Shown: positions 5,715 to 9,578 of the stretch, piece after piece | How positions within the stretch are numbered: the stretch's first letter is position 1 | How the letters are laid out: each line of letters begins with the position of its first letter | From: Candidatus Omnitrophota bacterium | Lineage (GTDB): Bacteria > Omnitrophota > Gorgyraeia > Gygaellales > Profunditerraquicolaceae | Length of the DNA stretch: 37,029 bases | NCBI GenBank assembly: GCA_003644385.1 | Contig: QNCD01000007.1 | Coordinates: 1-37,029, forward strand | Direction of reading: 5' to 3' | Translations under genes and position numbers: made by a program | The notes under the pieces: model-generated | What the model was told of the DNA's origin: nothing | Databases searched by the model: none | Seen by the model: the letters and a program-made list of their open reading frames with translations, nothing else

Positions 5715-6593
5715 ATGAAAGCTAAAATTTTAAAATTAGGCCTGCCCAAAGGAAGCCTGCAGGAGGCGACCTTTCGGCTTTTTAGGAAGGCAGGATTTCG
5801 CCTTGAGGTTTCAGAGCGTTCCTATTTTCCGGTTATTGACGATCCTGAAATCGAACCGGTGTTATTGCGCGCGCAGGAGATGTCGCGTTATGTTGAAACC
5901 GATTTAGATTGTGGTATTACCGGACAGGATTGGGTATTGGAAAATAATTCCAAGGTCAAGGAAGTCAGCGAATTAATTTACGCTAAACAGTCCTTAAGGC
6001 CGGTACGCTGGGTGGTAGCTGTCCCCAGGGATTCATCGGTTAAAAGATTGAAGGATCTAAAAGGCAGGCAGATTGCTACCGAACTTTACAACGTAACTAA
6101 AAAATTTTTTAAATCCAGGAAAATAAAAGCAAATATAGAATTTAGCTGGGGAGCGACCGAGGTAAAGGTCGCTCAGGGGTTAGTCGAAGCGGTAGTTGAA
6201 CTTACCGAGACAGGAAAAAGCCTTAAGGCAAATAAATTAAAAGAAATTGCTACTATTTGTGAGTCTACTACTAAATTTATCGCCAATTATAACAGCTGGC
6301 AGAACAGCTGGAAGAGGGCTAAAATAGAACAGATAGCCCTTTTGTTGACCGGGGCAATTGCTGCGGAGGAAAAAGTAGGGCTTAAAATGAATGCCAGAAA
6401 AGAGAACTTAAATAAAATAATAAAGCTTCTTCCGGCATTGAAAAATCCCACCATTTCCGAGCTTTCGAAAGCGGGGTGGCTGGCGATTGAAACGGTAATC
6501 GATGAAAAAATAGTCAGGAACCTGATCCCAAACTTAAAAAAAGCCGGGGCCCAGGGGATTATCGAGTACCCTTTGAATAAGGTAATATATTAG
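5715..6593 (+). CDS. hisG: ATP phosphoribosyltransferase, long form
   Basis: KLGLPKGSLQEATFRLFRKAGF, DCGITGQDWV, VEAVVELTETGKSLKAN; ATG 5715 preferred over the TTG at 5709. Confidence 0.92.
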   Translation: MKAKILKLGLPKGSLQEATFRLFRKAGFRLEVSERSYFPVIDDPEIEPVLLRAQEMSRYVETDLDCGITGQDWVLENNSKVKEVSELIYAKQSLRPVRWVVAVPRDSSVKRLKDLKGRQIATELYNVTKKFFKSRKIKANIEFSWGATEVKVAQGLVEAVVELTETGKSLKANKLKEIATICESTTKFIANYNSWQNSWKRAKIEQIALLLTGAIAAEEKVGLKMNARKENLNKIIKLLPALKNPTISELSKAGWLAIETVIDEKIVRNLIPNLKKAGAQGIIEYPLNKVIY

Positions 6594-6647
6594 TACAGCG
6601 TACCGAGTACGGTGTACCGAGCATTAATCGGAGCGAAAGCGAGGAAG
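6593..6647 (+). repeat. GTAC-rich intergenic repeat ending in GAGCGAAAGCGAGGAA
   Basis: GTACAGCGTACCGAGTACGGTGTACCGAGCATTAATCGGAGCGAAAGCGAGGAAG; related to 861-895 and 26731-26762. Confidence 0.6.
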
Positions 6648-6649
6648 TG

Positions 6650-6751
6650 ATGCCTTGCGGCAGGAAAAGAAAGAGAAGAAAAATAAGAACCCACAAGAGA
6701 AAAAAGGCGCGTCGTCGCCTTCGCCATCTCAAGAAAAGGTCCTGGGGTTAA
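6650..6751 (+). CDS. 33-aa highly basic microprotein, AURKAIP1/COX24 (bS22)-like; absent from the ORF track
   Basis: ATG 6650 to TAA 6749-6751: MPCGRKRKRRKIRTHKRKKARRRLRHLKKRSWG; resembles small MPCGRKRKR..KIxTHKRKKxRR proteins of the COX24_C/DUF1713 type; GAGGAAG just upstream. Confidence 0.8.
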   Translation: MPCGRKRKRRKIRTHKRKKARRRLRHLKKRSWG

Positions 6752-6777
6752 TAGGTCCCTATAAACTTAAGGTTTAT

Positions 6778-7767
6778 ATGGCAACTAGGATTTTAAACTT
6801 AAAAGGATGGCTGGTTTTTTGCCTTTTAACACTTCTTTTATTAGGTAAGAGCGCAGAAAGCTTTGCTTTAGATAAAAAAATATCAAAGACGTTATCCCAT
6901 TTTATTATAGCGGGCTTTTATGATCGGCTCCAAGACAGCGAAAGCGCGATAAAAGAATACAAAAAGGCCCTAAAAACAGATTATCAAAATTCGGTTATAC
7001 ATTTCAATTTAGCTTCTGTTTACCTGAAAGATAACCAGACCAAAAAGGCAATTGAAGAGTTGGAACTCGCCGCAAAATTCGACCCCGAAGCTGTGGAGCC
7101 GCATTTAATATTAGCGCTTGTATATTCAATCCAGAATAACCCTGAATTAGCAACCGCTGAATATGAATTAGCTCTTAAGAATGCTTCTAATCTTGACCCA
7201 AAAAATTTAGATATCTATAAAAATTTGGGACTGATTTATCTTAAGCAGAAAAAATATCAAGCAGCTGAAAGCGCATTCAGGCTAATTCTGGAACAAGGCG
7301 CTGAAGACGCGGAAGTTCATTTTTATTTAGGCAATGTTTACGATGGCCTTAAAGATAAAGAACGGGCAATAAGAGAGCTTAAAAAAGCCTTAGAGTTAGG
7401 CCCTGATTTTCACGAGGCGCTTAATTACTTAGGTTACCTCTACGCTGAAGAAAACATTAATTTAGATTCTGCAGAAGTGATGATAAAAAAAGCCTTAGAG
7501 TTAGACCCTGATAACGGCGCTTACATAGACAGCTTAGGCTGGCTTTATTATAAACAAGGTAAAATCAAAGAAGCGGTTATAGAATTAGAAAGGGCAAGTA
7601 AATTAATGCCTGATCCGGTTATCTATGATCATTTAGGAGATGTTTACTTCAAGATCAATGAGCGGCAAAAGGCAGAGGCGAGCTGGGAGAAATCGTTAGA
7701 ATTAGATCCTGAGCAGGAAGAGGTAAGAAATAAAATAGAGTCACTCATGACAAATGACAAATATTAA
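6778..7767 (+). CDS. TPR-repeat protein with N-terminal signal/TM segment
   Basis: ATG 6778 (MATRILNLKGWLVFCLLTLLLLGKSAESFA) followed by multiple TPRs; the track start at 6655 overlaps the micro-ORF out of frame and is probably spurious. Confidence 0.85.
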   Translation: MATRILNLKGWLVFCLLTLLLLGKSAESFALDKKISKTLSHFIIAGFYDRLQDSESAIKEYKKALKTDYQNSVIHFNLASVYLKDNQTKKAIEELELAAKFDPEAVEPHLILALVYSIQNNPELATAEYELALKNASNLDPKNLDIYKNLGLIYLKQKKYQAAESAFRLILEQGAEDAEVHFYLGNVYDGLKDKERAIRELKKALELGPDFHEALNYLGYLYAEENINLDSAEVMIKKALELDPDNGAYIDSLGWLYYKQGKIKEAVIELERASKLMPDPVIYDHLGDVYFKINERQKAEASWEKSLELDPEQEEVRNKIESLMTNDKY

Positions 7768-7806: not shown

Positions 7807-8643
7807 TTGAATTTACAGAATATGTCTTATAGCGAAGCAGAGATTAAAGAATTAGAAGCAAAGGCAAAAGAAGTACGGCGCCTTATTATAAAAATGATCG
7901 CTGAGGCAGGCTCGGGACATCCCGGAGGCAGCCTTTCTGCTACGGATTTAATCACCGCATTATATTTTTCCGTATTAAGGCACAATAGCGCTGAGCCAGA
8001 TTGGAATGAGCGCGATAGATTCCATATGTCAAAAGGGCATTGTTGCCCCCTTTGGTATGCAGTATTGGCATTATCGGGTTATTTCCCGGAAAAGGAACTT
8101 TTGACTTTAAGGAAATTGGGTTCTTTTTTACAAGGCCATCCGGATAAGCGCACTCCAGGCGTCGAGGTAGCTTCGGGTTCACTAGGCCAGGGTTTATCAG
8201 TAGCTTTAGGAATGAGCCTGGCGGCTAAAATAGACAAAAAAGATTACCGCGTTTATTGCCTGATGGGGGACGGAGAAATTCAGGAAGGCAATATTTGGGA
8301 AGCGGCAATGGCTGCTGCTCATCATAAATGTGATAATATTTGCGCAATATTAGATTATAACGGATTTCAAATTGACGGTGAAGTTCAGGATATTATGGGC
8401 CTTGAGCCTTTACTGGAAAAATGGAAGGCTTTCGGGTGGCATGCGATAGAGATTGACGGCCACAATATGAAACAGATCTTGAGTGCATTCCAAGAGGCTA
8501 AAAAAATAAAAGAAAAGCCTACAATCATCATTGCTCATACCACAAAAGGCAAAGGCGTATCTTTTATGGAGAACGTGGTTGATTTCCACGGCCGCGCCCC
8601 GACAAAAGAAGAAGCGGAAAAAGCGCTGGGAGAGTTAGAATAA
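7807..8643 (+). CDS. transketolase, N-terminal subunit
   Basis: GSGHPGGSLSATDL, GSLGQGLSVALGMSLAAK, GDGEIQEGNIWEA; TTG 7807 or ATG 7822 start. Confidence 0.92.
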   Translation: MNLQNMSYSEAEIKELEAKAKEVRRLIIKMIAEAGSGHPGGSLSATDLITALYFSVLRHNSAEPDWNERDRFHMSKGHCCPLWYAVLALSGYFPEKELLTLRKLGSFLQGHPDKRTPGVEVASGSLGQGLSVALGMSLAAKIDKKDYRVYCLMGDGEIQEGNIWEAAMAAAHHKCDNICAILDYNGFQIDGEVQDIMGLEPLLEKWKAFGWHAIEIDGHNMKQILSAFQEAKKIKEKPTIIIAHTTKGKGVSFMENVVDFHGRAPTKEEAEKALGELE

Positions 8644-8648
8644 CTATT

Positions 8649-9578
8649 ATGACTGAAATGCTTTATCAACGTGATGTATACGGAAAAACATTAGCTGAAT
8701 TAGGACGGCAGAATAAAAATATTGTGGTTTTGGACGCCGATTTATCCGGTTCAACACGCACCAGCCTTTTTGCCAAGGAATTTCCGGAAAGGTTTTTTAA
8801 TTTCGGAGTAGCGGAACAAAATATGATTGCATCTTCCGCAGGATTAGCCAGTTGCGGAAAAGTCGTTTTTGTTTCTACTTTTGCTATGTTTGCTACCGGA
8901 AGGGCCTGGGACCAGGTAAGAAATACAATCGCCTACAATAATTTTAATGTTAAAATAGTCGCTTCTCATGCCGGAATTACCGTCGGGCCTGATGGCTCAA
9001 GCCACCAGGCTATAGAAGACATTGCCCTTATGCGGGTTATCCCGAACATGAAAGTCATTGTTCCCTGCGACGGCCCCCAGACAAAGGAGGCGGTTTTAGC
9101 TGCAGTAAATATTCCGGGACCTTTTTATATACGACTGGGAAGGCCGAAAGTCCCTACCATAGAAAATAAAAGTAACTTTAAATTAGGAGAAGCTCAGGTA
9201 TTAATTGAGAGCAAAGATATTGCCATTATTGCCTGCGGTGTAATGGTAGATGCTGCATTAAAGGCGGCAAACAATCTTTTAAAGAGGGGAGTCAAAGCCG
9301 GAGTAATAAATGTGCATACAATCAGGCCTTTAGATTCTAAGTCCCTGCTTGATGCTGTTGGTTCAAGTCGGGGTATTGTAGTCTGCGAAGAGCATAGCAT
9401 TGTTGGCGGATTAGCTTCGGCTATCGAGGAGGCCCTTACAGAAAATAACCCTTTAAAACTGGTAAGGGTAGGCATAAAAAACCGTTTTGGACAGTCCGGA
9501 GAGCCCGCGGAACTTTTAAAAGAATATAATTTGACCAGTGAAGATATAGAAAGTGTTGCTTTATCGCTTGCCTCTTAA
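8649..9578 (+). CDS. transketolase, C-terminal subunit
   Basis: LDADLSGSTRTSLF, FNFGVAEQNMIASSAGLA, GPDGSSHQAIEDIALMR. Confidence 0.92.
   Translation: MTEMLYQRDVYGKTLAELGRQNKNIVVLDADLSGSTRTSLFAKEFPERFFNFGVAEQNMIASSAGLASCGKVVFVSTFAMFATGRAWDQVRNTIAYNNFNVKIVASHAGITVGPDGSSHQAIEDIALMRVIPNMKVIVPCDGPQTKEAVLAAVNIPGPFYIRLGRPKVPTIENKSNFKLGEAQVLIESKDIAIIACGVMVDAALKAANNLLKRGVKAGVINVHTIRPLDSKSLLDAVGSSRGIVVCEEHSIVGGLASAIEEALTENNPLKLVRVGIKNRFGQSGEPAELLKEYNLTSEDIESVALSLAS

Follow-up and report, generated by a model that had tools for sequence, protein, structure and literature searches.

A probable bS22 ribosomal protein gene downstream of hisG in Omnitrophota

Introduction

A short and highly basic open reading frame lies between hisG and the gene of a TPR-repeat protein in a 37,029-nucleotide stretch of DNA (hereafter the window, meaning the whole stretch that was analysed) from a bacterium of the Candidatus Omnitrophota, which belong to the PVC group. 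Is it a gene in its own right, and if so, what does it encode? A first-pass annotation had proposed a missed putative ribosomal microprotein gene, and this proposal is now backed by homology to solved chains, phylum-wide conservation, synteny and codon selection. We consider it highly probable that the frame is the Omnitrophota gene for bS22, a protein of the small ribosomal subunit, with its own Shine-Dalgarno (SD) site and a place in a hisG-bS22-TPR-transketolase cluster; its ribosomal site and role would be those seen in relatives.

The bS22 family is already known, and the window protein is a member of it with a lineage-specific LRHLKKR-x-W tail. What is new is a phylum-wide bS22 census, the linkage to hisG, a set of bridging forms, and the conservation of the LRHLKKR-x-W tail in the window's lineage. 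A literature search, confined mostly to sources other than subscription journals, found no work linking Omnitrophota with bS22. With this result the list of ribosomal proteins known for a large uncultured phylum grows by one, which the family models that we tried do not recognise.

The open reading frame

The bS22 gene occupies positions 6650..6751 of the + strand and consists of 33 codons plus TAA. Translation from the ATG at 6650-6652 to the TAA at 6749-6751 gives MPCGRKRKRRKIRTHKRKKARRRLRHLKKRSWG, exactly as first read, and this frame is out of register with a TTG-started extension of the TPR open reading frame. The gene begins 56 nt downstream of the hisG stop and ends 26 nt upstream of the TPR ATG at 6778. 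The SD-like sequence GCGAGGAA (6638..6645, + strand) is placed a few bases upstream of ATG 6650. A GTG at 6647, in the same frame, could lengthen the peptide by one Met; the start codon used in homologues is the equivalent of ATG 6650, not of GTG 6647.

Lys and Arg make up 58% of the peptide, its pI is about 12 and its sequence contains no signal peptide. The window has 60 ATG-started frames of 25-45 amino acids, and this is the sole one in which Lys and Arg exceed 50%. The AF2 model predicts a single alpha helix over residues 4-31 (mean pLDDT 87), which taken alone is weak evidence for bS22 identity.

Conservation and selection

Homologues that are 94% identical are present in the same family. 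A search with the single sequence found matches in 268 of 352 Omnitrophota genomes, and a profile search found bS22 in 232 of the 258 high-quality genomes (at least 90% complete, at most 5% contaminated), mostly with one match per genome; about 10% of good-quality genomes have no profile match. Given the close homologues within the family and the presence in 232 of 258 genomes, conservation of the frame is far beyond chance. Relatives carrying the MPCGRKRKR start, whose absence would have refuted the first-pass annotation by its own standard, do exist.

Frame 0 is uninterrupted in every one of 35 long-type homologues, and each of the other forward frames in 6 of them. Codon variability is concentrated at third positions. 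The pN/pS ratio is 0.127 in the bS22 frame against 2.06 and 1.67 in the other forward frames, values that are approximate because synonymous changes are near saturation. The bS22 frame is thus under strong purifying selection and the other forward frames are not. The start site is also conserved, with an SD core in the correct interval at 37/37 Omnitrophota bS22 loci compared with 12.6% of background ATGs.

Identity as bS22

A search of PDB sequences with the peptide alone gave Borrelia bS22 as the best match (8fmw_V, E 3.9e-6); bS22 of Flavobacterium johnsoniae (7jil_5, E 2.8e-4) and 9i5v_10, annotated AURKAIP1/COX24 (E 0.0059), were also recovered. Profile A1, an alignment of 18 rows from Omnitrophota and several other phyla, matched the same three chains at 1.2e-12, 7.1e-11 and 2.8e-9, respectively. 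The elements MPCG, KRK, KI, THKRKK and RH are invariant in all 18 rows. The window protein is 63-75% identical to chains observed bound in ribosomes. It also has the length (28-33 amino acids), the composition (about 60% Lys+Arg) and the helical character of Borrelia/Bacteroidota-type bS22, and the Omnitrophota proteins combine lineage-wide, mostly single-copy presence with purifying selection. Its closest relatives are of this type and not of the mycobacterial type.

The Borrelia burgdorferi protein (bb0822, 8fmw chain V; PMC10618245) has, like the window protein, an MPCGRKRK start, a THKRKK core, an RH near the C-terminus and about 60% basic residues, and its small gene was likewise overlooked by annotation. 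Its solved chain comprises 28 residues and its gene starts with GTG, whereas the window protein has 33 residues and an ATG start, and the LRHLKKRSWG tail is an extra of the latter. F. johnsoniae bS22 (7jil chain 5) and the Bacteroidota AURKAIP1/COX24 domain proteins fall into the same size class, with an MP-x-G-KKRKR start and a THKRKK core, but they end in RHKKKK where the window protein ends in RHLKKRSWG. Unlike the window's gene, the Bacteroidota genes have neither an SD-like upstream sequence nor a hisG neighbour. One record titled Streptomyces griseus (L048, CALPIT020000020.1) contains a bS22 of the Bacteroidota type that is not preceded by an SD; this bin is probably misnamed or contaminated.

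The family models tell a different part of the story. The window peptide had no match in a scan of Pfam, including PF08213 (COX24_C, curated cut-off 23 bits), or of NCBIfam, including NF047430 (ribo_bS22, curated cut-off 34 bits). The structure-proven bS22 proteins of Borrelia and Flavobacterium also stay below the cut-off of the COX24_C and NCBIfam bS22 models, so the null result reflects a limit of the models. Current models hence miss the MPCG-type branch of bS22, structure-proven proteins included.

The hisG neighbourhood

The upstream neighbour of bS22 is hisG (5715..6593, + strand), which encodes ATP phosphoribosyltransferase and was named in the first-pass annotation and from its sequence (LGLPKGSLQEATF). 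Comparison of micro-ORFs that follow hisG in related genomes had been suggested as a check, and bS22 is found there at almost every locus that we looked at: hisG immediately precedes it in 35 of 37 loci, in 18 of 19 loci of a second set and in 14 of 14 loci with divergent forms. One of the two exceptions among the 37 lies at a contig end. The TPR gene follows bS22 in 34 of the 37 loci. Beyond it, two frames at 7822..9578 (+ strand) appear to be split transketolase-like genes, a name taken from a sequence motif and not from a family search; frames with the N-terminal motif AGSGHPGGSLS follow the TPR gene in most relatives of the same order.

We examined 12 good genomes without bS22. Nine of them also have no hisG match, and in one hisG is at a contig end. 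In the other two (L173 and L174), hisG is followed directly by the TPR frame with no bS22 between, which indicates that the TPR gene can stand without the microprotein. Together with the roughly one-tenth of genomes left unmatched, this arrangement indicates that bS22 can be lost, moved or diverged.

A search for hisG adjacency in the loci of other phyla found it only in Omnitrophota and in L035 (MDLB01000107.1), a symbiont record named 'PVC group bacterium (ex Bugula neritina AB1)' in which bS22 directly follows hisG. In eleven Bacteroidota loci (L032, L041, L042, L043, L064, L073, L076, L108, L111, L139 and L141) a weakly TPR-like frame (E about 1e-5 to 1e-3) is found just upstream of bS22. 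The window itself has a tandem imperfect 14-nt repeat (AGTACAGCGTACCG / AGTACGGTGTACCG) at 6592-6619, between hisG and bS22.

Divergent forms and the COX24 connection

The first-pass annotation had seen a resemblance to the COX24/bS22 family and had suggested a search with the COX24_C/DUF1713 model. The resemblance to solved bS22 chains stands, and the window peptide itself is unmatched by COX24_C. Two divergent Omnitrophota orthologues located directly after hisG (L181 and L186) do exceed the PF08213 cut-off of 23 bits, with scores of 26.5 and 23.7. L181 (MGSLVKKRRKKINNHKRKKRLRLNRHKKS) resembles actinobacterial bS22; against NF047430 the best score among the Omnitrophota orthologues tried was 22.6 bits, under the cut-off of 34. 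Members of families f21 and f22 (L179, L180, L182 and L183) have a divergent core, HWFKKRRKxQRH, and are still immediately 3' of hisG.

The MPCG type and the COX24/actinobacterial type are connected by their shared position after hisG. By sequence the two would be joined through transitive homology only, and the link as a whole is drawn from synteny and short-sequence similarity and not from a phylogeny. The common neighbourhood is positional evidence that MPCG-type bS22 and its COX24-like counterpart are one and the same gene, and this equivalence bears on the question of a bacterial ancestor common to bS22 and mS38. Actinobacterial bS22 (NF047430; e.g., 5o61 and 8crx) occupies the same pocket and has the same size according to the published papers, and the L181-like Omnitrophota members resemble it; the PDB and NCBIfam searches gave no direct match between it and the window protein. 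The cited papers place mS38 (AURKAIP1/COX24, PF08213) and eL41 in the equivalent pocket. Of these two, mS38 is mitochondrial and longer, and its family model is the one reached by the two Omnitrophota orthologues; eL41 is an archaeal/eukaryotic analogue to which we saw no sequence match.

A wider interpretation can be offered tentatively, at somewhat short of even confidence. bS22 may be an ancient, broadly distributed protein of the bacterial small subunit, in which the MPCG and COX24-like forms, both retained beside hisG throughout Omnitrophota, unite the Spirochaete/Bacteroidota, actinobacterial and mitochondrial versions as one orthologous family, and the window's lineage may have gained a conserved, Trp-containing tail at the C-terminus with a distinct ribosomal contact.

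Alternative explanations

The region could instead encode the N-terminus of the TPR protein, read from TTG 6655, the basic peptide being an out-of-frame accident. This frame is open through to the TPR stop and is preceded by the same SD-like sequence as bS22. However, when the TPR frame is walked back it meets a stop before the bS22 start in 32 of 34 loci, remaining open only in the window and in L002, so that relatives do not conserve the frame of 6655-6777. Selection is confined to the bS22 frame, and in relatives the TPR protein begins with a hydrophobic stretch at about +90 to +430 from the bS22 start. We regard this explanation as very improbable and the TTG-started extension (6655..6777, + strand) as a spurious, largely out-of-frame reading of bS22, in agreement with the first-pass annotation. 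Since the upstream frame is closed in nearly all loci and relatives have their hydrophobic starts after bS22, ATG 6778 is most likely the true TPR start, as had also been proposed. The protein encoded from there (6778..7767, + strand) has a signal peptide/TM segment, MATRILNLKGWLVFCLLTLLLLGKSAESFA, at its N-terminus, and all of its Pfam TPR matches lie downstream of this hydrophobic segment. No clear SD was found at ATG 6778. A 10-nt inverted repeat (CCCTATAAAC / GTTTATATGG) at 6757-6781 spans this start codon; it is a possible hairpin and could couple TPR translation to that of bS22.

Two further explanations concern what the bS22 peptide does. A peptide so rich in Lys and Arg might act outside the ribosome as a basic nucleic-acid-binding or antimicrobial-type peptide, and free C. 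acnes bS22 peptide does inhibit bacterial growth and cell-free translation (PMC10085706). We give hardly any credence to this as a replacement for a ribosomal role, against which it has to be set that the protein is nearly universal across the phylum, closely similar to ribosome-bound chains and devoid of a signal peptide; a moonlighting role, were there one, would be secondary. The other explanation is a variant of the preferred one, in which bS22 has an extra lineage-specific job in its LRHLKKR-x-W tail, for example by making contact with another bridge element or with a biogenesis factor. In a comparison that took in the window protein and L176, L177, L184, L185, L187 and L188, the long-type Omnitrophota proteins have LRHLKKR-x-W or something close to it at their C-terminus and share the Trp at position 32, and a similar KK-x-WS end recurs in the distant Omnitrophota families f60, f61 and f64. 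The remaining Omnitrophota and other phyla, including the Borrelia and Bacteroidota types, end in RHKKK. Such a job seems unlikely; conservation of the tail may instead come from packing against lineage-specific rRNA.

Proposed role in the ribosome

Structures of relatives give an idea of where Omnitrophota bS22 would bind. Borrelia bS22 in the solved ribosome is found in a 16S pocket formed by h2/h27/h44/h45 and contacts H68 of the 23S rRNA (PMC10618245). C. acnes bS22 contacts H67 and forms an extra inter-subunit bridge (PMC10085706), and in yeast an inter-subunit bridge depends on mS38, as do the stabilisation of h44 and the efficient formation of mitoribosomes (PMC6582356). By analogy, we infer that the 33-residue Lys/Arg-rich peptide, once translated from its own SD site within the cluster, would fold as one helix, probably bent as in relatives with solved structures, and would insert into the h2/h27/h44/h45 pocket beneath the mRNA channel. 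There it may touch H67/H68 of the 23S rRNA, adding an inter-subunit bridge, and would stabilise h44 and the decoding region.

It has also been relayed that bS22 could help initiation on leaderless messages that have no SD sequences (PMC6582356). A search of the window's own genome assembly for the 16S 3' (anti-SD) end did not find it. Within the window, SD cores are present upstream of 16 of the 32 usable starts, a count that leaves out bL9. This proportion, together with the SD that precedes Omnitrophota bS22 itself, does not favour support of SD-less translation as the general role of bS22.
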